Shown piece by piece: positions 36,767 to 62,617 of a DNA stretch of 64,000 nt. A program made the position numbers and the translations under genes. A model generated the notes under the pieces. The model was not told where the DNA came from. It saw nothing but the letters and a program-made list of their open reading frames with translations, and searched no databases. This DNA comes from Pelagimonas phthalicica (GTDB lineage Bacteria > Pseudomonadota > Alphaproteobacteria > Rhodobacterales > Rhodobacteraceae). The stretch lies in NCBI RefSeq assembly GCF_004364805.1, contig NZ_SOAP01000001.1:620001-684000 (forward strand). Reading direction: 5' to 3'. The first letter of the stretch is position 1. Every line of letters begins with the position of its first letter.

Positions 36767-37420
36767 TTACAGGGCGAATTCTGTTGCCTTTTCAAATCCC
36801 TTGAGCACCGGAGCCGTTCCGTTGAACGCGTGACGCCAAGCGATTTCGCCTTCTAACTTATGTCCGACCCGCACGGTTCCAAGGGCATTCTCAATAAAGA
36901 TGCAGGCAATTCTGCCACCTTCCTTGAGTTGATCGGCAATCGCCGCTGGAACAACCTCTACACCGCCCTGGATGATGATGACATCATAAGGGCCATGCTC
37001 GGCTGCGCCATCGGCCAGCGAACCGGTGTGAAAAACAACATTGTCTGAGTGATTTTCGCTCAAAAGGCTCTGAGCTTCGGCAACCTGCGCCTCATCGTCT
37101 TCGACAGCAATGACCGCTTCGGCAATGCGGGCGATGACGGCTGAGGAATAGCCAAGACCCGCCCCGATATCGAGCACCAGGTCGTCATTGGTCAGGTCCA
37201 AAACCTCCAACATTTTGGCAAACAGGCGCGCATCCAAAAGATGACGTCCAGACCAAAGCTCAACATGGTCACCGGAATAGGCGGCTTCGACCTTTTCCAC
37301 GGGAACAAATTTCTCACGCGGAACGGTGAGCATGGATTCAATGATCGGAAACTCGGTCACGTCCGAAGGACGAACCTGTGTGTCAACCATCATGCGGCGG
37401 CGGGTGGCAAAGTCTGTCAT
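36767..37420 (-). CDS. pcm: Protein-L-isoaspartate O-methyltransferase
   Basis: This 217-residue SAM-dependent methyltransferase has motif I VLDIGAGLGYSSAV and the family segment VPREKFVP near the N-terminus. It methylates isoaspartyl residues of damaged proteins. In alphaproteobacteria this short PCMT-like protein is commonly next to tolC, as here. It is the last clearly chromosomal gene before the tRNA fragment and prophage. Confidence 0.83.
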   Translation of the reverse strand: MTDFATRRRMMVDTQVRPSDVTEFPIIESMLTVPREKFVPVEKVEAAYSGDHVELWSGRHLLDARLFAKMLEVLDLTNDDLVLDIGAGLGYSSAVIARIAEAVIAVEDDEAQVAEAQSLLSENHSDNVVFHTGSLADGAAEHGPYDVIIIQGGVEVVPAAIADQLKEGGRIACIFIENALGTVRVGHKLEGEIAWRHAFNGTAPVLKGFEKATEFAL

Positions 37421-37593: not shown

Positions 37594-37613
37594 GGCCTCC
37601 ACTCTGGCGAGTT

Positions 37614-37648
37614 GGCGGAGTGGTGACGCAGCGGATTGCAAATTCGCG
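37614..37648 (+). pseudogene. tRNA-Cys 5' half (truncated)
   Basis: GGCGGAGTGGTGACGCAGC matches the acceptor strand and D-arm of alphaproteobacterial tRNA-Cys. The anticodon arm follows: GCGGA, loop TTGCAAA with anticodon GCA, then TTCGC, still pairable through one G-U. After 37648 there is no variable loop, T-arm or 3' acceptor strand, and no TTCGANTC appears downstream. Phage-type DNA begins here, so this looks like a prophage integration scar. The missing half or an intact copy should lie elsewhere. Confidence 0.7.
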
Positions 37649-38126: not shown

Positions 38127-40805
38127 TCAACTAATAACAAGGCACCAATCAGGCTTTGAAAGCGACGGAATTCGAGTGTCAAATAGAGCCTCTTGAGCCA
38201 CAGTCAATTCAGGATCTCGCCCCATTTTATTTTTCATCATGTCTATCAACGGAAACAAAACACTAGACTGCGAACGCATCTCGGGTATCGCGATGCTACC
38301 CCCATTGCTCTTATGAAGTTTTCTGGAAACTTCCCTAGGCACGACGTAATCAACTTTGGGCCCAAAAACTACTAGCTCTTCTACCGTTTCAACTTCAAAA
38401 TACTCAGGAGACAACTGATTATAACCTAATATCCCAAATTGAGACGTGATGCTAAATGAAGCGGGCACAATAACTCTATCGCTTCTTTTTACAAGCTCCT
38501 CCAAAAACCTTGCCGACCTTTCCACTCCTCGATGAAGAACAAGCGGAATTTCAAGCTTTTTTCCTAACGTACTATAAACGGCTGAACCCAAGAGCAATTG
38601 TTCATGCCTGGTCATTAGACCGAGATCGACCATATTAAGTTGCCCCTCTAGCCAGCGATCTATTGCCTTCTCTGGCGCATTGGGGTGAGCATATTCTCTA
38701 GACGCCCTCACAGTTGAGCATTCTACTACACCAATAAATGGGATTGGGGCGCCTGTGGAAGTCGTCATCGGGATTCCTAATTGACCGGTGACAATACCAC
38801 CAACAGCCGCACAACCAAAGGAACCTGAATTACCTGAGTTACCTCTCGTTAGTTCCTCAACGTCCAGAGCGGCTCTACCATGAACTGTACCGCTGGCATC
38901 GGTTATGGAACTAAGCATGCTTTGTGGTTTGTGTCGTTCAAATTGCTCCGTAAAGCCAGTAAAATAAAGTTCGTCTAGGAACTTAGTCGAAGCGCTCCCA
39001 TAGATGTCTGGGAGATGTCGAAACTGCTCGCCAGTTCTTAGGTCTTTGAATTGGACCTCTACATCCAAGAAAGACACCATTGATAACAACCTCTGTGTAA
39101 AACCTAAACTTTTAGTGTTCTCCGCCCTCCTTTCAGCCTCTAATTTGCGCAACAACCCCCTAGCGGTTCGCTTGTCTTTTTTTGGGGGAGCTTCTGCCTC
39201 GATAAGTTCAGCTTTCTTTAGTGACATTGTAACCCGTGTCGAGGTGTCATTTGGCAATCTGTCACTTGCATTTGTTCTCAACAAAGGGCGCGCTGCCAAT
39301 CCCGAAAACTCAAGGGCATTGGCTTCTCGCTTGCCAAGATCATATCGCCTCGAAGTAACTGAAACTTTGTCCGTGAAGTCAAAAATGGAAAAAAATCCAA
39401 TTCCAAATTTACCTATTCTCTGGAAACCTGATGACCTTAACCCAGGAAATTCTTCGCGAAGAGCACTCGAATCCCAAAAGGTCTTCCCAAAGTCCACCAG
39501 AGTTGTTGTTAAAACCCTCGAACTCATTCCCAATCCATCGTCATCTACATGAACCAAACAAAGAGTGTCATCGCTTGGGTGGGCTTCTATGGTAACGTTT
39601 ATTCTCCCAAATTCTTGGCCCCGTTGTTCATGGGCGCGCCTCGCGCGAATAGCGTCAGCAGCGTTTTGTATAAGCTCCCTAAACGGGACAAGTATGTTTC
39701 GACCGTAGAGATTTTCTCCACCCAGTTTTTTTGCAAGAGAAACCGGATCTGTGACTCGGATACTGGCATCAATAGGGTGCCAATCGGTTGTTTTTACCAG
39801 ATTGGCGAACGAACGTGACGATTTAGCACCGGCAACACGCTGAACAACGAAAGGAGGCTGCCCAATTTCAGTTAGCAACGCGTTTGAAGAGTTGATTTCT
39901 TTATCCAAAATCTGGGCAAGATCATACGCAACCCACCACGCTTCCGAATCCTTAGAAGAAAAAACAGAAGAGGAAGTAAATTGAATAGAATCGCCGCAAA
40001 CAGTCGGACGGTTCAGTTTACTTTGAGCTAGCCAGTGAGCCTTCGAAAAGCCGGTCGGGTTTACCGCCGCTTGGAGAAGGAGCGGAGCTCGGGTCCGGTC
40101 AACTTGGGCTGCATCCGCGCATCGCAAAATGCATGCTAACTTTTGCTCATTGATATCCCAACCGGCAGGTAGACTTGGACTACCACCAATTTGAGACGAC
40201 AACTCTTCAGCCACACGGTTGATCGACCAGTGATGGCTGTGGGCGATACGCCCAATACACTCTCCAAACGCTTCTCGAAGCTCACTGTTCTCTAGGAGGT
40301 AAACATTGTTGCCAGGCTTCAATACCCAGGCCTGCGTGCACAGGCTTCCCGCTCGTTCTGCATGGAGTTCACGCAAAACCGCGAAGAGTACCGAAGCTTC
40401 TTGCTCAGCGGTAATTTCGCTGCCTCCTGTCTTTTGCAATTCGTCGGCAACTAGGTCGTCCCAGAGATCAAGTTTCTTAAGCCCTGCGCGCCCCTCTGGA
40501 TAGGCAATGGATGTAAGCCCGGCGTCATGTGTTAAAATCGCCGCCCCCAATACAAAGGTCTCCGAAGGGTTCAGTTCCCACTCGCTTCCACACAAGAGAT
40601 CCGCTGATGTCCACAAAGCATCCACATGGGAAATGTCGTGAACCGTTAAGTTTTTACAATCGGCGGGGATGTGGGTTACCAGCTCTTTCACCTGATCGCG
40701 CATAGAAAGCAACGCTGTCCGAAGAAGTGATCTTGCCTCTTCATGTTGATCATCTTCTCTCGGCTCAAAAGCCTGTCGCCACAAATCTGTTGTCTGAAAA
40801 TCCAT
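38127..40805 (-). CDS. HD domain plus HSP90-like ATPase fusion (candidate defence protein)
   Basis: This 892-residue protein combines two domains. The N-terminal 240 residues look like an HD-fold domain with HD at 56-57 (VHDISH), HD at 93-94 (LTHDAG) and later RIAHSHHW and CADAAQVDR, similar to HD-CE domains of conflict systems. Residues from about 350 hold a GHKL/HSP90-type ATPase: ELIQNAADAI (E377, N381), VDDDGLGMS (421-428) and KFGIGFFSIF (466-475). The roughly 300 C-terminal residues are unassigned. HSP90-like ATPases fused to effector domains occur in prophage-borne defence genes, so an abortive-infection role is inferred. The gene is visibly more AT-rich than the tail genes and sits between tailspike and attachment site. 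GAGGG precedes the ATG. Confidence 0.72.
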   Translation of the reverse strand: MDFQTTDLWRQAFEPREDDQHEEARSLLRTALLSMRDQVKELVTHIPADCKNLTVHDISHVDALWTSADLLCGSEWELNPSETFVLGAAILTHDAGLTSIAYPEGRAGLKKLDLWDDLVADELQKTGGSEITAEQEASVLFAVLRELHAERAGSLCTQAWVLKPGNNVYLLENSELREAFGECIGRIAHSHHWSINRVAEELSSQIGGSPSLPAGWDINEQKLACILRCADAAQVDRTRAPLLLQAAVNPTGFSKAHWLAQSKLNRPTVCGDSIQFTSSSVFSSKDSEAWWVAYDLAQILDKEINSSNALLTEIGQPPFVVQRVAGAKSSRSFANLVKTTDWHPIDASIRVTDPVSLAKKLGGENLYGRNILVPFRELIQNAADAIRARRAHEQRGQEFGRINVTIEAHPSDDTLCLVHVDDDGLGMSSRVLTTTLVDFGKTFWDSSALREEFPGLRSSGFQRIGKFGIGFFSIFDFTDKVSVTSRRYDLGKREANALEFSGLAARPLLRTNASDRLPNDTSTRVTMSLKKAELIEAEAPPKKDKRTARGLLRKLEAERRAENTKSLGFTQRLLSMVSFLDVEVQFKDLRTGEQFRHLPDIYGSASTKFLDELYFTGFTEQFERHKPQSMLSSITDASGTVHGRAALDVEELTRGNSGNSGSFGCAAVGGIVTGQLGIPMTTSTGAPIPFIGVVECSTVRASREYAHPNAPEKAIDRWLEGQLNMVDLGLMTRHEQLLLGSAVYSTLGKKLEIPLVLHRGVERSARFLEELVKRSDRVIVPASFSITSQFGILGYNQLSPEYFEVETVEELVVFGPKVDYVVPREVSRKLHKSNGGSIAIPEMRSQSSVLFPLIDMMKNKMGRDPELTVAQEALFDTRIPSLSKPDWCLVIS

Positions 40806-40971: not shown

Positions 40972-42441
40972 TCAATGGCTCCATCCCGGTGCAGAAAGGA
41001 CCAAACCGTCCACTCCGACAATCGTTGTGTCGCGGCTGATATAGTGTGGAACGCCCGCAGCCGTCAAAGCGGCCTCCAACTCCGGACCGGTTCGGTTGCC
41101 GAAGCCAAAGGTGCAGCCCGCCTCTACTGTGATCGATGCCGGGAAGTTGGTTCGACCCGCCTGGTCGGCCAAGTCCTTTAGGACCGTGCCGCCCTTCAAA
41201 ACGAGATGAGATTGCTCGACAGTGACGTCAGAGGGCCAACGCACCCAGAGGAACCGTTTGTCATTGTCGCTTTCATCGCGAACATTATCCAAAACCAGAG
41301 TGGGCGCGTTGAAAACTGAGCCGGTTGAGCGCACGCAAAGCTGGTTTTTGTAGCTTAGGCTGTTGGCCGCGCCACCGGCGATTACGGTATCTTTCAACGT
41401 CAGGTGGCTGTTTGCCCCGGCGAATGTGACCAAGTTGGTTGTGTTCGTGACCGGATTGGCTGTGGTGTCGATCCGCCCGCCGCCGAGAAACTCCCAAACG
41501 CCGGCACATTTGAACATGTTGTCGATCGCAGTGACGCGAAGCTCTGCATCGCTCAAAATCCCAGCGCTGTAGACGGGCAGCAGCCCAGCGCCTACCGCGT
41601 CTTCATCAAAACCGCTCCGGCAATTGTCGATGGTGACAAGGCCACTCACAAAGACCTTGCGATAGCATTGGTTGCCGCTGCCATGGGCGTAGACCGCCTT
41701 GGCAAAGTTCTTTGCGGTCAGGCCATCAATGGTCAAACCCATGTCGGAGTTGAATTGCGGCGAGTAGAAATTGACCGCTGCCCCTGACGCGCGGCCATGA
41801 GCTGCGTCAAACATTCCCGAGCGCGGTTCCCCAATGGCCGCATGCCGCGTTAGAAGGGCCGGGCCAACCCAGGCGTGCCCCCCGGCCCCAATGACTTCGC
41901 AATCCACAAAGGTGGCAGGGTCGCCGTAATCGGAAACGCCCAAGGAATCCTTACTGAAAGCACCGATCATCCGAGCCTTGCGAACAGTCTGGCCATTAAA
42001 GAAGCCATGAGACGCCTTGTCAGAACAAAAGAGAGCTTGTCCCGTTGGATCACCTCCGCCAGGTAGCTTTACAAAGAGGTCAAAGGGGCCGGTGGTTGAC
42101 GCATCAGATCTTATGTCCTGTTCGGTGGAGCCGGAAACATTGACCGCAAATCCCGCCTCTTCAGCGGCTAGGGTTGATAGGTTGGCCGCAATGTCTGCAC
42201 CACCCACAATCCAATCCAGGAACTCGCTTCCGTGCCAGACACCAAAATAGGTCGTGTTGCTTCCGGTTCCGCCGGGTGTGTGTGGGTCTGCAAGGTTGAT
42301 CTGGGTGGAAAACACCCCATTGCCCTCGTTGACCCATGTCGCCGAAGCGAGAGATTGACGTGCATCCAGCAGCGCCAGACCTAGGCGGCGCGGGAACGGG
42401 CTGAGCGAGCCCAGAGGCGACGGAAAAGGGCGACTAGGCAT
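40972..42441 (-). CDS. Phage tailspike-like beta-helix protein
   Basis: This 489-residue protein is rich in Gly, Asn, Thr and Val with repeated short strand patterns such as SHLTLKDTVIAGGA and SHLVLKGGTVLKDL, as in right-handed parallel beta-helix tailspikes and pectate-lyase folds. It would recognise or degrade a surface polysaccharide. The ATG at 42441 overlaps the preceding gene by 8 nt. It lies outside the main late operon, which ends at the terminator near 43900, so it is expressed separately. Confidence 0.6.
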   Translation of the reverse strand: MPSRPFPSPLGSLSPFPRRLGLALLDARQSLASATWVNEGNGVFSTQINLADPHTPGGTGSNTTYFGVWHGSEFLDWIVGGADIAANLSTLAAEEAGFAVNVSGSTEQDIRSDASTTGPFDLFVKLPGGGDPTGQALFCSDKASHGFFNGQTVRKARMIGAFSKDSLGVSDYGDPATFVDCEVIGAGGHAWVGPALLTRHAAIGEPRSGMFDAAHGRASGAAVNFYSPQFNSDMGLTIDGLTAKNFAKAVYAHGSGNQCYRKVFVSGLVTIDNCRSGFDEDAVGAGLLPVYSAGILSDAELRVTAIDNMFKCAGVWEFLGGGRIDTTANPVTNTTNLVTFAGANSHLTLKDTVIAGGAANSLSYKNQLCVRSTGSVFNAPTLVLDNVRDESDNDKRFLWVRWPSDVTVEQSHLVLKGGTVLKDLADQAGRTNFPASITVEAGCTFGFGNRTGPELEAALTAAGVPHYISRDTTIVGVDGLVLSAPGWSH

Positions 42442-42712
42442 GTCGGACCGACACCAGCCCGCCAAATGGCGCATACACCCACAGATGATCCGCATCGGGG
42501 GCGTCAAGGAATATCTCGGCCAAAGTGCCGCGCTCACCTTTGCCGGGCGGGCATTCCAGCGCACCGCTTGTGTCTGCCGGTTGGACATTGCCAACGGACG
42601 GTTGAAACTTCAGATCCAGGCCGCGTTTCGTCTGGAACACGATTCCGCCCGTCGCCGGTGCCTGTGTTAGCAGGTTCCACCCGCGGACCAATTCGATGTC
42701 ACCTTTTGCCAT
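42434..42712 (-). CDS. Small phage protein upstream of tailspike
   Basis: This 92-residue soluble protein starts MAKGDIELVRGWNLLTQAP and has no recognised domain. It overlaps the tailspike gene by 8 nt, so it is probably a structural or assembly partner of it, such as a tailspike adaptor. GGGGAACC precedes the start. Confidence 0.6.
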   Translation of the reverse strand: MAKGDIELVRGWNLLTQAPATGGIVFQTKRGLDLKFQPSVGNVQPADTSGALECPPGKGERGTLAEIFLDAPDADHLWVYAPFGGLVSVRHA

Positions 42713-43093: not shown

Positions 43094-43828
43094 CTACTCA
43101 GGCGCGTTAAGAATTGCCTGATCACAAGTCTGCGTGAGGATAGATAAAGCTCGCTCGATGGAAGCCCTTCTGTCATTCCTTAAAGTTGGGAACAGCCCCT
43201 CTAACTTATCGCTAAACGCATAGTTTTCCTTGCCGAAGAAATTTAGCTGACTGTCGATCAAAAGCCACTGCAAATTCTGACTAAGAGTCTTGGCTTCTTC
43301 ACGCTCATCTTCGTCGAAAAATATTGTGATTCCAGAGACTGAATTTATAAGTTCTTCAATTGCTTGGCTGTCCCTCTCGACTTGCATCGAAAACACATAA
43401 CCAGATTTGGAAGCTGTTAACCAATCTACGAAGTCGAGGTCTTTGGACAATGGAGCGACAAAACCGTTTAAATCTAAGGTGTCGTCTGGAAACAATTCTT
43501 TCACGTTCATGCCTCCGGACCAAGTCAAGGTAGACTGAACTCTTCTAGTCGCCACAAGAAACTCTTCGCAAACTTGGATCCGGCGCAACTGAAGGTTGGC
43601 TTTGTATGGAGTATCGATCGTTTCGATCAATATCCTCGTTTGCCAGAGCGAGACCCCCGCAGCTATCGATGCTACAACCAAGGCCAACACTTCGACCCAA
43701 TTACCAAAGGTCATCTTTCGCGAGTTTTCGGAAGGCAGGTTTGGTGCAATCTCGACAGAGGGCGCTTCTGGTTCCGTCTTCGGTTTACGCACCTTTGTGA
43801 AGCGTCCATCGACCTTTCTGACAGCCAT
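43094..43828 (-). CDS. Membrane-anchored protein of unknown function (cargo)
   Basis: This 244-residue protein has a basic N-terminus, one membrane segment (VEVLALVVASIAAGVSLW, about residues 46-63) and a soluble acidic C-terminal domain of about 175 residues. I recognise no family. GAGGTGAGC precedes the ATG. It is separated from the late operon by an intrinsic terminator and from the next gene by motif copy A, so it is an independently transcribed insert. The AT-rich composition resembles the HD/HSP90 gene. A lysogenic-conversion or superinfection-exclusion role is inferred only from location and anchoring. Confidence 0.6.
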   Translation of the reverse strand: MAVRKVDGRFTKVRKPKTEPEAPSVEIAPNLPSENSRKMTFGNWVEVLALVVASIAAGVSLWQTRILIETIDTPYKANLQLRRIQVCEEFLVATRRVQSTLTWSGGMNVKELFPDDTLDLNGFVAPLSKDLDFVDWLTASKSGYVFSMQVERDSQAIEELINSVSGITIFFDEDEREEAKTLSQNLQWLLIDSQLNFFGKENYAFSDKLEGLFPTLRNDRRASIERALSILTQTCDQAILNAPE

Positions 43829-44776: not shown

Positions 44777-45784
44777 CTAAGCGATGCGCTTCGCTTGCGC
44801 CGTGGTGCTGTATCCGGCCTCAGACAGTTCGTGCGATGCAGTTTCCACCACCCATTGGCCAGACGCCGCCGCGCTGAAGTCGAGCGGTATGATTTTGCTC
44901 TCTGCAACCAAACTGGGGTTTCCCGGCATCTCGATAGACAGGGTTTCCATGGAGCGCCCAGCGCGTCGGGCTTCGACCTGGGCAACGGCCTGCGCCTCGG
45001 CCTGAGAACCAAATCGGTGGCGTAATCGGCGCACAGGTTCCCCCTCGCCCACTTTGACCTCGATATCCTTGCCTTGATCCAGATCCCGATAGGTGGCGAT
45101 GACGGTGCCGGTTGCCTCGCCAAGGCTGCGCCCCATCCCCCAGCGTGTGACATCCGCTTCTCTGAGAGAGAGTACAGGCATAGGCTCACCAGATGCTTTG
45201 ATTGCATCCCCCTTCCGCCCGACAAAAAGCACCCCACCGGTGGGCTTCGCAACCAAGTCATATGCCGCCGCGATACGGGTTAGGACTGACATGTCGCTCT
45301 CATCGATCTGGTCGATATGCCCGGGCTTCAGTTTGGCCGCGGCCTCGGTAACTCCGGGCTCCAAACCATTTTCTCCGGCGATTGTGGTCACGATATCATT
45401 CAGGGTTAAGCTTTCGTCCCAAGAGCAGGATTTTTGCTGGTGAATTGGTGCCTTGCCGCTCTTTGTTTCCCCCTGGGCCTTGGCACGGCAGACAACCCGG
45501 ATGGATCGAGGCGGACCACCCTCGAAGACATCATCGACAACATAAAGCCCCATTGATTTGAAGTTTCCCAGATAGCCTAGGGCGATTTCGATCTCTGCAC
45601 CCGGCTCCGGCATTGCAAAAGGACCAATGGGGGATGCGTTGGCAAAGACGATTTCAGCCGTATCAGAGACAAAGCCCGCAACATCTGTCACCCTGATCGA
45701 TGTCAGATGCGAAAACGCAAAGCTTGATAGGGGCACACCATCGATCGTGACGCGCGCAAAGGGGCGAAAATCACTCAGCCCCAT
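44777..45784 (-). CDS. Phage late control / baseplate hub protein D
   Basis: This 335-residue protein matches the P2 gpD family: an N-terminal domain with FAFSHLTSIRVTDVAG, a central DESDMSVLTRIAAAYDLVAKPTGG and a C-terminal region ending in a tail-hub fold. gpD is the baseplate hub protein in contractile tails. It overlaps gene X by 10 nt and is the last canonical P2-type tail gene. Confidence 0.87.
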   Translation of the reverse strand: MGLSDFRPFARVTIDGVPLSSFAFSHLTSIRVTDVAGFVSDTAEIVFANASPIGPFAMPEPGAEIEIALGYLGNFKSMGLYVVDDVFEGGPPRSIRVVCRAKAQGETKSGKAPIHQQKSCSWDESLTLNDIVTTIAGENGLEPGVTEAAAKLKPGHIDQIDESDMSVLTRIAAAYDLVAKPTGGVLFVGRKGDAIKASGEPMPVLSLREADVTRWGMGRSLGEATGTVIATYRDLDQGKDIEVKVGEGEPVRRLRHRFGSQAEAQAVAQVEARRAGRSMETLSIEMPGNPSLVAESKIIPLDFSAAASGQWVVETASHELSEAGYSTTAQAKRIA

Positions 45785-51151: not shown

Positions 51152-51877
51152 TCACGGTTTCAAATCGAAACTTGATATATCGAGCCCACCTGCTTCTTTA
51201 AACTCAAGGCGAGATATCTTTGGCTGGCCGGTACTCTCTTCGTTCAAGCCAACCAACATGCAAACTTTATTTTCCTCTAGAACTATTAAATGTTCCTGCA
51301 ATAAATTTGTCATTAACCTAGTCCAGTAAAAGACGTCAGAAAAGTCCTGTGGATTTGCTACCGGCCCTTTAAAGATATTTTTGACGGATCCTCGATGCAG
51401 AATGCTACCAGCGAGGTTCCACAACTCGTAAATTTGGGCCTGAGTAATACAATCTTCATTATTTATCTGAATTTTAAACCGCCCATTTGGACGGTGCACC
51501 CTTACTGCCTGAGGAAAAAACGAGCCTCTGAGTTCTTTTAGTTTCTCCAAGATAAACCTGGGTTTATATGATTTTTCGACCTTTGCTCCATACTCAATAT
51601 CACCATGAGCGACTAAGCATCCTAGAGATATCAGTTCGCAAAGCATCCGCAATTGGAGAAAGCAGTTCTCACGCACAATCGCAGGGGGCAACTCGGACTT
51701 AGCTGCATACGAAAGGTTGATTGCATGCAACCGAAACCTAGCCTCAGACATCAAAGCTAGGTAACCTTTTGCCTGGCCTTCTTCCGTTTTAAAATCATCC
51801 TTTCCCAGCATTCCCAGCTCCCAACCCACGACTGAGAGTAACGAATAGCACAGGGGCTGGGGAAAAACACTGTTCAT
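51152..51877 (-). CDS. Unknown cargo protein at the Z/fun-equivalent site
   Basis: This 241-residue soluble protein starts MNSVFPQPLCYSLLSVVGWE, has a helical N-terminal half (EARFRLHAINLSYAAKS, LRMLCELISLGCLVAHGD) and a mixed C-terminal half. I recognise no family. It is much more AT-rich than its neighbours and separates the tail-fibre genes from the sheath gene, the position where P2 carries Z/fun and where P2-like phages are known to swap defence genes. ATG 51877 follows GGTGAAACG; GTG 51889 is possible. A defence function is inference from location. Confidence 0.6.
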   Translation of the reverse strand: MNSVFPQPLCYSLLSVVGWELGMLGKDDFKTEEGQAKGYLALMSEARFRLHAINLSYAAKSELPPAIVRENCFLQLRMLCELISLGCLVAHGDIEYGAKVEKSYKPRFILEKLKELRGSFFPQAVRVHRPNGRFKIQINNEDCITQAQIYELWNLAGSILHRGSVKNIFKGPVANPQDFSDVFYWTRLMTNLLQEHLIVLEENKVCMLVGLNEESTGQPKISRLEFKEAGGLDISSFDLKP

Positions 51878-52034
51878 CGTTTCACCCACATCGAACAGGT
51901 GCCGTGGTGAATTAGACTCACGATTTCAAAAGGCTTCAAATCGCTGAACGCAAATCGAGCGACGCAAACTATCATGCAATTATCAATGCGGCCCGCGCCC
52001 TAAGAGAACGCGAGCGCTCACATTTCGGTTCTTC

Positions 52035-57684: not shown

Positions 57685-59691
57685 TTACACAGAACGTCCC
57701 AGGCAGAAGCTTTCTTTGCGGCGCAGAGCGACATCAAAATCCTGATGTAGAACGATGCGGCGGGTGCCTGAGAGTGATTTGGTATAGGGATCAACCAGGA
57801 TATCCAGCGCGCCCCACAGGCCGATCAGCACGTCCTTGAGGTTGCCAAAAAGAACATCACCATTTGCAAACTGGTTGGTAATTTCGGTTTTGGAACCGTT
57901 CACGGTATTGCCGTTTTCCCAGACAGGTTGCCCATTGGACCCAGCAAACTTTTCAGTCGATTTGCAGTGACCGCGGAACTTGGCGTTGCCGACGTAACGC
58001 ACCGAGCTGGTCAATGCGTTGTCCAGCGCCACTTCGGTTTCCATTTCAATAATTTCACCATAGGTCGGTTGCTGGCCCGCGAATGGGACGGCATTGATTC
58101 CTGTTGTGTTCAGCACACCCAACGGATTGTTACCCACGCCGTCGCCATAGAAACCATAGTGATCAACACCCAGTGCAAGATCTGTGGCCAGGCTGGACCG
58201 GAATTGCAATTCAACATCCATAGACGATTGCTGCAACATGCGGCGCGTAACGCTACCAAAAACACCAATGGTGGTCGGCGACATTTTGATAAGCCCAGTG
58301 TCCATGCTGCCTTCGCCAACATCTTCATCTTCGCCAACGATAAAGACGTTGCCACTGCCGGTTTGCCCCGGCATGTCGAGATTGCCAACGAGCCCGCCCA
58401 TAGGGGTGCCCAAGGAAAGCAACGTCGCACGATTGCGCAACATCTCGATAAAGGATTGAGAGGCAAGCGTTGTATCCACCAAGAATCCGCCAGTGTCACC
58501 AGGGTTTGCGCCAGATGTCGATGTGTTCAAGGCACGGGTGAGCACGTCAACGGGTACGGTGATCCCGTCAGAAGAGCGCCCCATTGACTGCTGCGCAGCT
58601 TCCGACGCCTCGCGCTCAAAAGCTGCTTCTTCCTGTGCAGAGCGGCTTTCCGGGTGCAAGAGCGCACGGGCCGCACGAATAAAACTGAAACGGCGCACCT
58701 CGGACTCGGTCATCCCGATTTCACCGGCATTATCGTCTAGGGGCTCGTTTCCACCCCCATCGCCACCATTGACGTGATCCAGCAATGTGCGGGTGAACTC
58801 ATCAACGCTGGTGCCGTTGCGGATCGCCTCGGCGGCCAATTGCTGTGCAGAATACTGCTCGCCCATTTCCAGCAAGCTTGCGGTGCGTTGTTGTTCGGCC
58901 TGTGTGCCGCGTGTAACCAAAGCTTGTGTATCCGCCGCGCGCTCAAGAACTTCGACAACTTCCACAATGTTCCCGTCGTCATCAACCTTGGCCCGGACAA
59001 GGTCGCCGTTTGCATTGCGGAGAATTTTGGTGTGCATTTCGCCCGGTCCTTCTGGTTCGGTGGCAGTTGTTTGCAGGTCATTATTGGGGGTTAGGGAACC
59101 GGGTTCCTCTGGCGGTTCCCCCACCGCTCGCCCCACCCCTACGGTCGGATCGGCAGGAACACTCACCAACGAGATTTCATAGGGCTCCCATTCAGTTACG
59201 GTCACCTTGTCGCGCTGGCCTTCCCGCTCTTCGGTTTTGATCGCGCGAACAAAGTAACCAACGGACACATGTCGAATGATACCCGCCGCAACATCGAGCC
59301 AAATTTCTTCAGCCTTTGCAGATCGCCCAAACCGCAGAACCGCGCGCCCTACCCGGTCAGGATCGATGGTCGCAGAATCCACCACACCGATATGGATATC
59401 AGCGTCATGGTTCCAAAGAACAGCCGCGCCATTTTGCAGCCGCGTCTGAACCATTGCCCCGGGCGAATGATCGAGAATTTCGTCACCAAACCAGCGCGAT
59501 ACAGGCTCTTCAGAACTGAAAGCAACCTCAACCGTGCGCGCTTCTTCGTCCACATTGCGCACCGCAGCATGACGCTGCAATGGCGATGCGCCGCGATTGG
59601 CATTGATTTGCTCGACGGTTAGCGCGCGGGTCAGACCAAAGCCGACCCAAGACGCGGCAAGGCTATTCTTCTTCAGGATCATCTTTGTCAT
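57685..59691 (-). CDS. Prohead protease fused to major capsid protein (HK97 type)
   Basis: This 668-residue protein has an N-terminal HK97-type maturation protease with AAVLWNHD, HVSVGYF and EWEPYEISLVSVPADPTVG in the first 190 residues. A linker and scaffolding-like helical region follow, and an HK97-fold major capsid protein occupies the C-terminal half (GDTGGFLVDTTLASQSFIEM, GVFGSVTRRMLQQSS, FYGDGVGNNPLGVLN). Fused protease-capsid genes occur in several phages. An internal ATG at 59037 with GAAGGA upstream could also give a free capsid of about 450 residues. The dispersed motif is read in frame at 59104-59124 as VGEPPEE in the linker. Confidence 0.87.
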   Translation of the reverse strand: MTKMILKKNSLAASWVGFGLTRALTVEQINANRGASPLQRHAAVRNVDEEARTVEVAFSSEEPVSRWFGDEILDHSPGAMVQTRLQNGAAVLWNHDADIHIGVVDSATIDPDRVGRAVLRFGRSAKAEEIWLDVAAGIIRHVSVGYFVRAIKTEEREGQRDKVTVTEWEPYEISLVSVPADPTVGVGRAVGEPPEEPGSLTPNNDLQTTATEPEGPGEMHTKILRNANGDLVRAKVDDDGNIVEVVEVLERAADTQALVTRGTQAEQQRTASLLEMGEQYSAQQLAAEAIRNGTSVDEFTRTLLDHVNGGDGGGNEPLDDNAGEIGMTESEVRRFSFIRAARALLHPESRSAQEEAAFEREASEAAQQSMGRSSDGITVPVDVLTRALNTSTSGANPGDTGGFLVDTTLASQSFIEMLRNRATLLSLGTPMGGLVGNLDMPGQTGSGNVFIVGEDEDVGEGSMDTGLIKMSPTTIGVFGSVTRRMLQQSSMDVELQFRSSLATDLALGVDHYGFYGDGVGNNPLGVLNTTGINAVPFAGQQPTYGEIIEMETEVALDNALTSSVRYVGNAKFRGHCKSTEKFAGSNGQPVWENGNTVNGSKTEITNQFANGDVLFGNLKDVLIGLWGALDILVDPYTKSLSGTRRIVLHQDFDVALRRKESFCLGRSV
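59104..59124 (-). repeat. Dispersed prophage motif, copy D (in frame)
   Basis: Plus-strand TTCCTCTGGCGGTTCC then CCCAC is identical to copy B. It lies inside the protease-capsid gene, in the linker, 67-87 nt before the internal ATG at 59037. Confidence 0.7.
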
Positions 59692-61285
59692 TGTCGCTCT
59701 CCTCAGATTGGTCTTTTTCGGGTTTGGGTTGCGCAGGCGCTGAAGGCTGCACGCCTAAAACGGCGGCCATAATGAAAGCTTCGGGCATCCCGGCGGCTTG
59801 CATTGCTTTGATGTCGGCTGCGTATGTGCGCCAGGTCGTGTCTGGATCATCGCCTTTTCGACGGATGATCTCGGACGGCGATGTCAGGAGGTTGTTTTTG
59901 GCGTCAATTTCGGCCCGAATATCCTTGCTCGGATCTACCCAGGCCCATCGACGCCCCTGCCAATAGACATTGCGATAACGCTCAATACGCTCCGGGCGTA
60001 GCCGAATGCCACCATGCGCGATGAGCCCCATCAAAAGCGCAGGAGCCAAGGCCGATTGGTAGCAACGATCGATCAATGTTTCGATCAACCATTCCTGCAA
60101 ATCCATCCAATGGTCGCGCTCATCCAAAACACCTTGCCGGATTGAGCTGAAATTCACACCTTCCAGATCGTTTGCAAAGCTGACATAGGCGACGCCCATG
60201 CCCGCACCCGCACCGCGCAACATGGCCTTGTGAAACGGCCCAAACTCACCAGCCGGGTAATGCGAGTTGAATTCCTTGACCTGGGCACCGGCGGGCAACT
60301 CTTGGAACACGCCCCCTTCAGGCTCGATATAGAGCTCTTCATCTTCAAGCTCTTCATCCGCTTCGGGGCCTTCTCCGTCTTTCCATTCGATGAACCCGCC
60401 AACGGCAGCGCCCGCCCGAGCACTGGTCAACGCAGCCTTTTCAAAGCCGCCCAACATATGCAGTCGCCAAAGCGATGTCGCAGCCCATGGGATACCCCGG
60501 CGCTGACCCTCGATCTCATCCAAGAAACCATGAATGATTTCAGCGGCAGGCACACGCTTAAGGCTGGAACCATTGAAGGTATAACCCGAATGCGCCGGAT
60601 CGCCGGTCATGAAATAGAAAGCCAGAGGGCGGCCTTCGCGGCTGTATTCAATCCCCTGCCGAACAAAGCGACCATTCGGCATGCGATCTATGTTGTAATC
60701 GACAGGGCAACGTTGCGGGTCCAAAGTTTGCAGCGCATACCCCATCGGCCCCGCCTTCGCACCTTTGATTTCGCGGAACATGAATTCACCGTCTTTTGCG
60801 GCGGTGCGAACAGCGCTCTTGCACATCCGGCGGAAACTGCGTCGCCCGGTGATGTCGCAGTTTTCGGCGCGCTGCCACTTCTTCCACCATGCTTCCAGCG
60901 CTTCATTGGCAGGCCGGTCAAGGCTCCCGTCGCTCAATCGGGTTTGTGCCTGAAGCGAAAACCCACGGTGCCCCACCATGTTTTGTTCACACAGGCGCAG
61001 ATAGCTTTTCATGTAGTCATTCTTGAGCGCCTCTTCGCGAGACCGCGCCACAAGAACACGTTGATTGCGATCGATCACCTGATCGGCGCTTAAGGGTGTT
61101 GTTGACCAATTCGCGGTTAGACGGTCAGAGATTGCCGCATCAAAGGAACGCTGACCGACCACGCCGCTTTGCCGGTTGCCGCGTCGGCGGATTTTTGGGA
61201 TGGGGCTTTCGCGCTCTTCGACCTCTACAACGGGTTCGACACGCTGGGCCGGTTCCGACTGATTGCGTTTTCCAAGGCCAAACAT
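59663..61285 (-). CDS. Phage portal protein, lambda family
   Basis: This 540-residue protein matches lambda gpB-type portals: SREEALKNDYMKSYLRLCEQNMVG, AAKDGEFMFRE, LDPQRCP and FSSIRQGVLDERDHW. It forms the dodecameric portal vertex for DNA entry. It overlaps the connector gene upstream by 1 nt and the capsid gene downstream by 29 nt. The acidic C-terminus (DNDKDDPEEE) is encoded in the overlap. Confidence 0.9.
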   Translation of the reverse strand: MFGLGKRNQSEPAQRVEPVVEVEERESPIPKIRRRGNRQSGVVGQRSFDAAISDRLTANWSTTPLSADQVIDRNQRVLVARSREEALKNDYMKSYLRLCEQNMVGHRGFSLQAQTRLSDGSLDRPANEALEAWWKKWQRAENCDITGRRSFRRMCKSAVRTAAKDGEFMFREIKGAKAGPMGYALQTLDPQRCPVDYNIDRMPNGRFVRQGIEYSREGRPLAFYFMTGDPAHSGYTFNGSSLKRVPAAEIIHGFLDEIEGQRRGIPWAATSLWRLHMLGGFEKAALTSARAGAAVGGFIEWKDGEGPEADEELEDEELYIEPEGGVFQELPAGAQVKEFNSHYPAGEFGPFHKAMLRGAGAGMGVAYVSFANDLEGVNFSSIRQGVLDERDHWMDLQEWLIETLIDRCYQSALAPALLMGLIAHGGIRLRPERIERYRNVYWQGRRWAWVDPSKDIRAEIDAKNNLLTSPSEIIRRKGDDPDTTWRTYAADIKAMQAAGMPEAFIMAAVLGVQPSAPAQPKPEKDQSEESDNDKDDPEEE

Positions 61286-61891: not shown

Positions 61892-61963
61892 CGCCAGATT
61901 GATTTGACTCGCTTAAAAGGCGGTGTCCGTCTAAGCTGAAACTATTAAATAAAGGGTGTGGAA

Positions 61964-62617
61964 ATGGACGATTTTCAGAAGAAACAATACGAGCAACGCA
62001 AAATTGATGAGCGGTTGGCCGATAGCGGCATGACGAACGGAAGCAACCAATCGTTAATTACTCAAAAACAAGAAGAACATAGAAGAAAACAAGAAGAACT
62101 AAATGGCGGAGGGTGTTTTGCAGTCGGCACTAAGATTTCTACTCTTGATGGCTTTGTTCCAATCGAAGAAGTCTCCGAGAGTAGTTCGGTCCTCAGTCTT
62201 TCGAAATCTGGAGAAACAAATATTAGCAGAGTTTTCGAGGTTCGACGTTACAGACCAGCTCGAATTTGGAAAATTTGCCTGACAGGGCATTCCCAAGAGC
62301 TGAGAGCAACTTGGGGTCACCCATTCTTAACATCTAGAGGAGTTGTACGCACGCGTTTTCTAAGACGCGGAGACCACCTTTTTAAATTAAATGAATCCAA
62401 CCAAATAGTTAGGACTTGCGTTGCATCTGTAGAGGCTACGAAGGAACGAGAGGTCGTTTACAATCTTATTGTTGACGACGATCTCTCCTACTTTGCAGGC
62501 GGCGTCGCAGTCAATTCCTTTAGTTTTGCAGGCAAGCTTCGCTTAGCATGCTTAAAGTTTCGTCGATACAGAGGCTTAGCTACACCGACACTACCGCGCT
62601 TTGATGTTCGACCCTAA
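61964..62617 (+). CDS. Stand-alone HINT (Hedgehog/intein) domain protein
   Basis: This 217-residue protein has a charged helical N-terminal segment (1-50), a HINT domain (about 51-184) and a basic tail (185-217). HINT hallmarks are C51 in GGGCFAVGTKI, T116-x-x-H119 in ATWGHPF and a C-terminal YNLIVDDDLSYFAGGVAVNS with N184 then S185. The usual penultimate His is replaced by Val. Self-cleavage or splicing chemistry is therefore plausible, though weakened. It is read against the late operon between terminase and the connector gene, is AT-rich, and overlaps the terminase 3' end by 27 nt. AAAGGG precedes ATG 61964. The role is unknown; HINT domains occur in polymorphic toxins and inteins. Confidence 0.75.
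   Translation: MDDFQKKQYEQRKIDERLADSGMTNGSNQSLITQKQEEHRRKQEELNGGGCFAVGTKISTLDGFVPIEEVSESSSVLSLSKSGETNISRVFEVRRYRPARIWKICLTGHSQELRATWGHPFLTSRGVVRTRFLRRGDHLFKLNESNQIVRTCVASVEATKEREVVYNLIVDDDLSYFAGGVAVNSFSFAGKLRLACLKFRRYRGLATPTLPRFDVRP

Follow-up and report, generated by a model that had tools for sequence, protein, structure and literature searches.

Why should an integrated phage carry, at the very end of its genome, a gene that joins an HD domain to an ATPase of the HSP90 type? The question is raised by a gene of Pelagimonas phthalicica that lies in a stretch of 64,000 nucleotides (positions 620,001 to 684,000 of contig NZ_SOAP01000001.1, assembly GCF_004364805.1; hereafter the window), and for which a preliminary description, made from the letters of the sequence, had proposed a role in defence. 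We find that the gene is carried inside an integrated phage and that some of its relatives occupy published antiviral hotspots. Because these relatives sit at prophage positions that hold antiviral genes, the gene is probably an immune gene; its sequence is best read as that of a single-gene, lysogen-borne anti-phage protein (acting by superinfection exclusion or abortive infection), a reading to which we would give a probability of roughly 55%. The fusion of an HD domain with an HSP90-like ATPase appears to be a new architecture for which the positional evidence is good. The gene and its parts, with protein positions in amino acids (aa), are as follows:

38127..40805, minus strand: HD-HSP90 fusion gene (892 aa, ATG start, internal stops absent)
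39891..40652, minus strand: HD-CE domain, aa 52-305 (Pfam PF24391, E 1.7e-53)
39216..39716, minus strand: HSP90-type GHKL ATPase domain, about aa 364-530 (Pfam, NCBIfam, phmmer, alignment, hhalign)
38130..39215, minus strand: C-terminal region, aa 531-892, possible HSP90-like middle domain (Foldseek on the full model, R703 motif)

The domains of the protein

The preliminary description had recognised an HD domain and a GHKL/HSP90-type ATPase; both were recovered with Pfam, and the residues H93, D94, E377 and N381 never vary among 12 aligned proteins, namely the window protein and 11 relatives that share 24-38% identity with it. The whole-protein model has a mean predicted local distance difference test (pLDDT) score of 77 and a predicted template modelling score of 0.69.

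The match of the N-terminal part to HD-CE lies far above the cut-off of that family (182.5 bits against 27), and the domain was matched in all 12 aligned proteins at E 0.01 or better. Throughout this alignment H56, H60, H93-D94, H148, H191, R228 and D231 are invariant; H56, H60, H93-D94 and D231 supply the H...HD...D metal ligands of the HD superfamily phosphohydrolases, and this intact metal-site signature suggests that the HD half is a metal-dependent phosphohydrolase. A profile search of the PDB with the HD alignment gave no match. The Pfam library states no function for HD-CE, which is fused to an HSP90-like module here and also occurs elsewhere as a stand-alone gene.

Such stand-alone HD-CE genes overlap genes for ORC-CDC6-like ATPases (PF24389) twice in genome G782 (L012:1366-3527 and L025:71-3349), and one of the two pairs sits behind a C5 cytosine methylase gene; PADLOC matched neither pair, and we regard them as a candidate two-gene conflict system. 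A plasmid protein of Priestia combines HD-CE with HATPase_c_3 over the cut-off, and a plasmid protein of Aliarcobacter does so with HATPase_c_3 below it. Since HD-CE is found with different ATPases, it appears to be a module that is coupled to various ATPases, which would make the HD domain the effector and the HSP90 half an ATP-driven switch; the pairs of G782 fit such a division of labor between HD-CE and ATPase.

For the ATPase domain, the Pfam match to HATPase_c_3 is just above its cut-off (25.5 bits against 25, aa 377-488). In a phmmer search of the PDB, HSP90 proteins were matched over aa 364-504 (best E 1.9e-8), and with hhalign the family (aa 350-892) aligned to 12 HSP90-like proteins (alignment A5, chosen by length and motifs, the label "HtpG" being given by eye) at E 6.5e-24 over 158 columns of the ATPase domain. 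The residues E377, N381, D422xGxGM (including G424 and G426), G465, G468 and G470-F471 are invariant in the 12 aligned family proteins. The features of the HSP90 N-domain, the GHKL N-box and the glycine motifs, are thus present, and the likeness to HSP90 and HtpG consists of an ATPase domain with the N-box E and N, DxGxGM and GxxGxGF. Identity with a host HtpG was considered and is ruled out by the fused HD domain and by a score of 50.9 bits against the HtpG equivalog model of NCBIfam, whose cut-off is 371.

Of the large C-terminus the preliminary description could say nothing beyond its presence. We would revise this to a possible HSP90-like middle domain, which is suggested by the model and goes undetected by sequence profiles. 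In a Foldseek search with the full model, HSP90 chains made up all 50 PDB matches listed, over 398-490 columns (gaps included, the output being without aligned ranges), with a root-mean-square deviation of 7-10 Å and a template modelling (TM) score of 0.34-0.60 by target. As the ATPase domain measures only ~165 aa, these alignments extend past it, presumably into the region that follows. There R703 is invariant in 12/12 proteins, with a glycine that precedes it by 10 residues in 8 of them and by 11 or 12 in 4; the motif resembles GVVDSxDLSLNVSRE of the HSP90-like alignment, and we take R703 to be a candidate for the catalytic arginine of HSP90. Several results weigh against a middle domain: the query-normalised TM-score of the PDB matches listed is 0.26-0.30, the SR of the R703 motif is kept in 7/12 proteins only, hhalign of aa 505-892 against the HSP90-like proteins gave no match, and Pfam HSP90 (PF00183) is unmatched by this gene or anywhere in the host genome. 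After the ATPase domain, the likeness to HSP90/HtpG comes from the model and the R703 motif; in its N-terminal HD domain, its lack of a PF00183 match and a C-terminal part that is unrecognisable by sequence, the protein differs from them.

The integrated phage and the settings of the relatives

The left end of the element is marked by the following repeat:

37606..37643, plus strand: attL, where the 5' half of tRNA-Cys(GCA) is repeated perfectly over 38 bp

The second 38-bp copy lies within the complete tRNA-Cys(GCA) gene at L146:11328-11365 (window coordinate 75328-75365), and the integrase gene ends 110 bp short of the tRNA-Cys. The prophage so bounded measures about 37.7 kb, and in it the HD-HSP90 gene ends 484 bp inside attL, at the end opposite the integrase. 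In both congeners compared (G912 and G1304) the left flank runs unbroken into tRNA-Cys, so that the joint is uninterrupted there; after the tRNA neither genome matches the right flank, and the next gene of that flank lies on other contigs (C8, C10). G1304 has tRNA-Cys matches at C3:559-624 and C3:34443-34534, ~34 kb apart, and as one of these is partial, another element may be integrated on that side. DNA matching the HD-HSP90 gene is absent from the 2 other congeners, which leaves its own genome as 1 of the 3 compared in the genus.

The gene had been called AT-rich and independently transcribed. The former holds, with a guanine plus cytosine (GC) content of 0.476 against 0.566 in the 20 kb flank. 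The latter found no support: the gene starts 166 bp after the preceding open reading frame (ORF), on the late-gene strand, and the promoter and terminator scan gave no site upstream of it (in the region, 2 promoter-like sites where chance predicts 3.6, and 0 terminators where it predicts 3.9).

Relatives are rare and sporadic in the sampled genomes (1.0-1.5%). They occur in 4/390 genomes of the order (E <= 1e-20) and 6/398 of the phylum (E <= 1e-15) and, with the HD profile, in 4/385 of the class (E <= 1e-20), these samples overlapping and each counting the window's own genome. HD-CE itself reached its cut-off in 3/295 genomes of the family, with weaker matches in 12 more. Scans of genome contigs and viral contigs with a single sequence found no relatives. 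With an alignment as query, 520/595 candidate stretches of the genome contigs were confirmed and the best 80 of these used, a scan that is uninformative on rarity; in 3 of the 80 (L037-L039) the match covers the HD region, and in the remaining 77 the ATPase region only. The same query found 24 loci in viral contigs, 9 with the HD part, and an HD-only query found 11, two of them new (L141, L142). When both viral scans are combined, 11 different contigs carry relatives (L117-L125, L141, L142; ORFs of 844-900 aa). L117 and L118 are identical in sequence, which leaves 10 non-redundant contigs, and the proteins of L122 and L123 are 89% identical.

Against 50,697 phage records the window protein had no match, and the L122 relative had 6, all confined to the ATPase region; in E. 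coli genomes the latter found nothing at megablast sensitivity. Among plasmid records there were 4 matches, one of them nearly full-length on a Zymomonas plasmid; the L039 relative again gave the same three records, and the L122 relative had 105 matches, of which the 20 listed are mostly HtpG. Relatives are also found in Enterobacteriaceae, Lachnospiraceae and Sphingobacteriaceae. In a tree of 22 rows, where 7/19 inner branches are well supported, the window protein forms a pair with the G343 copy, which lies in a different prophage (100/100). Another group (100/99) joins a copy from Lachnospiraceae to four from viral contigs, and P2-type cI and cII genes neighbour three of these four.

The survey of prophage neighbourhoods that the preliminary description had recommended lends the defence reading support beyond what that description offered. 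In 7/11 viral contigs a CI-type repressor (phrog_4) lies upstream on the same strand: the gene is directly behind CI in L117, L118, L121, L122, L123 and L142 (gaps of 33-76 bp), and one ORF intervenes in L120. Three of the 11 are at published antiviral hotspot positions. In L125 the gene lies between gpA (phrog_91, with an intervening ORF of 76 aa) and gpQ (phrog_68), which according to the main text of PMC9122126 is an anti-phage hotspot of E. coli P2-like phages, where old-tin and 3/8 further cloned systems were protective. In L142 it lies between cI and the integrase and in L120 between cI and an integrase fragment, and cI-int is described in the same text as a hotspot of K139-like P2-related phages in Vibrionaceae, with known defence systems present (PMC9122126). 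Elsewhere, a terminase gene adjoins (L124), a tape-measure gene is nearby (L119, a weak match), or a Rha-like regulator gene adjoins with a terminase gene ~5.6 kb off (L141). In two contigs (L141:9173-9658 and L142:12739-13254) the HD-HSP90 gene has beside it, on the opposite strand, a gene for a small protein with probable membrane segments (by eye), and the two small proteins are related.

Fourteen cellular and plasmid copies were located and the surroundings of 13 read, the unannotated Nonomuraea copy being left out; families were scanned for chosen neighbours only, so that neighbourhood counts are not rates, and the labels of phage structural genes in L154 were assigned by eye. Phage genes or an integrase are near five cellular copies (G000, G343, G001, G634 and Edaphovirga): an endolysin and a weak tail-fibre match in G343, an integrase ~5.6 kb away with tRNA-Phe close in G001, an adjoining integrase in G634, and adjoining portal fragments in Edaphovirga. 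In Zymomonas a 31.7-kb plasmid carries the copy, with a TIR-NLR gene ~1 kb off; in Sphingobacterium an AAA_15/AbiEii-like ATPase gene lies upstream, separated from the copy by one ORF. Insertion-sequence-like genes (by eye) are within about 4 kb in G285, and the G464 copy is at a contig end. These settings (11 viral contigs, a plasmid, the vicinity of integrases) indicate that the relatives are not confined to core chromosomal sites without mobile context. A Csy4 gene (PF09618) is near the HD-HSP90 gene of Edaphovirga cremea, where clustered regularly interspaced short palindromic repeat (CRISPR)-like repeats read as ORFs were noted by eye (L039:6753-8194).

The gene has a lower GC content than its flanks in 23/24 loci, by up to 0.21, the exception being Zymomonas (+0.003); in this comparison L117 and L118 count separately, G343 is represented by the N-terminal half and G464 by a contig-end piece, and G966 is left out. 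No neighbour family was present in more than 4 of 23 loci (ORFs >= 70 aa within 6 kb), hence no partner gene is evident; the recurrent neighbour clusters are mostly phage genes or transposase-like.

A proposed immune role and its rivals

If the protein is immune, its mechanism might be the following. The HSP90-like half would be an ATP-dependent clamp that is idle in the lysogen. A product of the infecting phage, perhaps a phage protein taken as client, would alter the ATP-driven dimer cycle of this clamp, and the altered cycle would release or align the HD domain. Thus freed, the HD domain would hydrolyse a phosphoester (a nucleotide, a signalling nucleotide or a nucleic acid) and infection would stop. 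The domains with their intact signatures, the prophage and the hotspot relatives are observed; that the gene is expressed in the lysogen, and how it would sense, gate, act on a substrate and protect, we infer. HSP90 is best known as a chaperone; here its cycle would be acting as an immune switch that controls an HD enzyme in a mobile protein. A single-gene defence system would be added, the orphan HD-CE domain would be given a role, and prophage cargo outside the studied hotspots would become recognisable through relatives inside them. A broader proposal, which we hold only tentatively and think less likely than the immune role itself, is that HD-HSP90 proteins are unnamed chaperone-derived immune receptors in which a client-sensing clamp switches the HD domain, HD-CE being exchangeable between ATPase sensors. 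VcSduA, a Shedu defence protein (PMC12137116), likewise unites a GHKL ATPase with an effector enzyme; there the ATPase is N-terminal and the PD-(D/E)xK nuclease C-terminal, whereas the HD domain is N-terminal in our protein.

A number of observations count against an immune role. The window copy is at the tail-attL end of its prophage, unlike the gpA-gpQ and cI-int hotspots (PMC9122126). The gpA-gpQ site also carries partition systems and a toxin, and 4/9 cloned gpA-gpQ systems protected, plus the AC1 system tested separately; the word "HATPase" is absent from the main text of that paper (PMC9122126). Nothing mobile was seen around the copies of G417, G608, G966 and Roseburia (20-32 kb, by eye, without family searches). 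The preliminary description could match the protein to no named defence system, and PADLOC 2.0 (2023) agrees: there was no confident match to a named system, and the TmtA models reached at most 13.4 bits (E 0.0034) for the window protein (aa 368-519), with a best E of 7.9e-6 among the relatives. Our literature searches found no publication that names the HD-HSP90 architecture as defence. HATPase and HD genes of Orientia (PMC10732058) were dismissed as pieces of SpoT and of kinases. Lastly, the HD-only model (mean pLDDT 85.5) had 0 matches in the PDB at E 1e-3; its top match is a prenyltransferase (E 0.088), and phosphodiesterases and GppA are among the weak ones.

Those weak matches are the starting point of a different explanation, counter-defence, in which an HD phosphodiesterase would destroy host signalling nucleotides, such as the messengers of cyclic-oligonucleotide-based antiphage signalling systems (CBASS), Thoeris or type III CRISPR, and so aid lysogeny. 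Cyclic-nucleotide phosphodiesterases (PDE2, PDE10, TcrPDEC1; best E 0.16) predominate among those of them that are recognisable as HD-superfamily proteins, the gene is phage-borne, and the HxxxHxD at aa 56-62 recalls what we take to be the phosphodiesterase motif HNxxHAxD. Yet these matches are not significant and rank under the prenyltransferase, a gene placed behind the repressor would more probably be expressed in the lysogen than early after infection, and copies without visible mobile context exist; to our knowledge, moreover, a large HSP90 half would be unusual in an anti-signalling enzyme. We therefore consider counter-defence improbable.

Equally improbable, in our estimation, is lysogenic conversion for the stress fitness of the host, for example the supply of an HSP90-like chaperone to a cell that lacks HtpG. 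The host genome (0/1) has no match to Pfam HSP90 PF00183, and the same search was positive in 5/14 control genomes; the gene thus places an ATPase domain that is clearly HSP90-like in a cell without a recognised HtpG, which keeps such a supply conceivable. Against it, HD-CE is fused in 12/12 aligned proteins with its metal signature intact, the chaperone C-terminal part is undetected by sequence, and relatives occur in Enterobacteriaceae, Lachnospiraceae and Sphingobacteriaceae, families that normally possess HtpG.

Somewhat less credible still is prophage housekeeping, with the protein as a regulator of lysogeny or lysis timing after the fashion of RIIA. HSP90-like ATPase folds are known in phage proteins from RIIA of the T4-like phages, which are lytic; 17/50 viral fold matches listed bear the name RIIA or that of a protector from prophage-induced early lysis, and the gene is co-directional with CI in 7/11 viral contigs. 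However, RIIA is, as far as we know, without an HD domain. The location also varies between phages and extends to a plasmid and to chromosomal surroundings, and the low GC content marks the gene as added cargo. Least probable of all is a selfish or addictive toxin-like gene with no immune role: the gene is mobile and low in GC, and the G343 copy is split by insertion-sequence-like genes (by eye) and the frame of the G001 copy is broken, as if the gene were costly, but no antitoxin-like partner recurs among the neighbours and relatives stand at hotspot positions.

Other features of the prophage

The remaining landmarks of the prophage and its border are these:

36767..37420, minus strand: host gene beside the left attachment site, conserved in two congeners
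40972..42594, minus strand: final ORF of the late strand ahead of the cargo gene, likened to a tail fibre by its position only
44777..45784, minus strand: gpD-like tail protein (phrog_52, E 9e-78)
59663..61285, minus strand: portal protein (phrog_21, E 6e-95)
L146:7098-7721 and L146:7758-8372 (window coordinates 71098-72372, just outside the window): LuxR-type/LuxI-type pair (Pfam)

The host gene presumably encodes a protein-L-isoaspartate methyltransferase-like protein, a name that we gave by eye. The cargo gene had been placed between a tailspike and the attachment site of a P2-like prophage. Its location between ORF 40972-42594 and attL (37606-37643) stands; this ORF has no PHROGs or Pfam match, so that "tailspike" stays an assignment by position. 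PHROGs recognises a portal, a major head protein (phrog_617), a tape measure and the gpD-like tail protein in the prophage. The last of these agrees with a P2-like phage, whereas the portal and the major head protein match phrog_21 and phrog_617 instead.

The same prophage carries a quorum-sensing pair as cargo between a repressor-like ORF (L146:6578-6889; 0 PHROGs matches, labelled by eye) and the integrase: a LuxR-type protein that binds autoinducer (PF03472) and a LuxI-type synthase that makes it (PF00765, autoinducer synthase). A HINT-domain ORF (61958-62617, plus strand; PT-HINT 37.7 bits against 27.7) runs against the direction of the late genes, with the portal gene towards one side and an ORF labelled terminase-like by eye on the other. 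ORF 43094-43828 (minus strand, 244 aa), one of the last on the late strand, lies in DNA of low GC (0.47), has a probable membrane segment (by eye) and has no PHROGs, Pfam or PADLOC match. ORF 51152-51889 (minus strand), among the tail genes, has no Pfam or PADLOC match and matches only phrog_13799 (function unknown); it lies in DNA of low GC (0.46) and is possible further cargo of the prophage.

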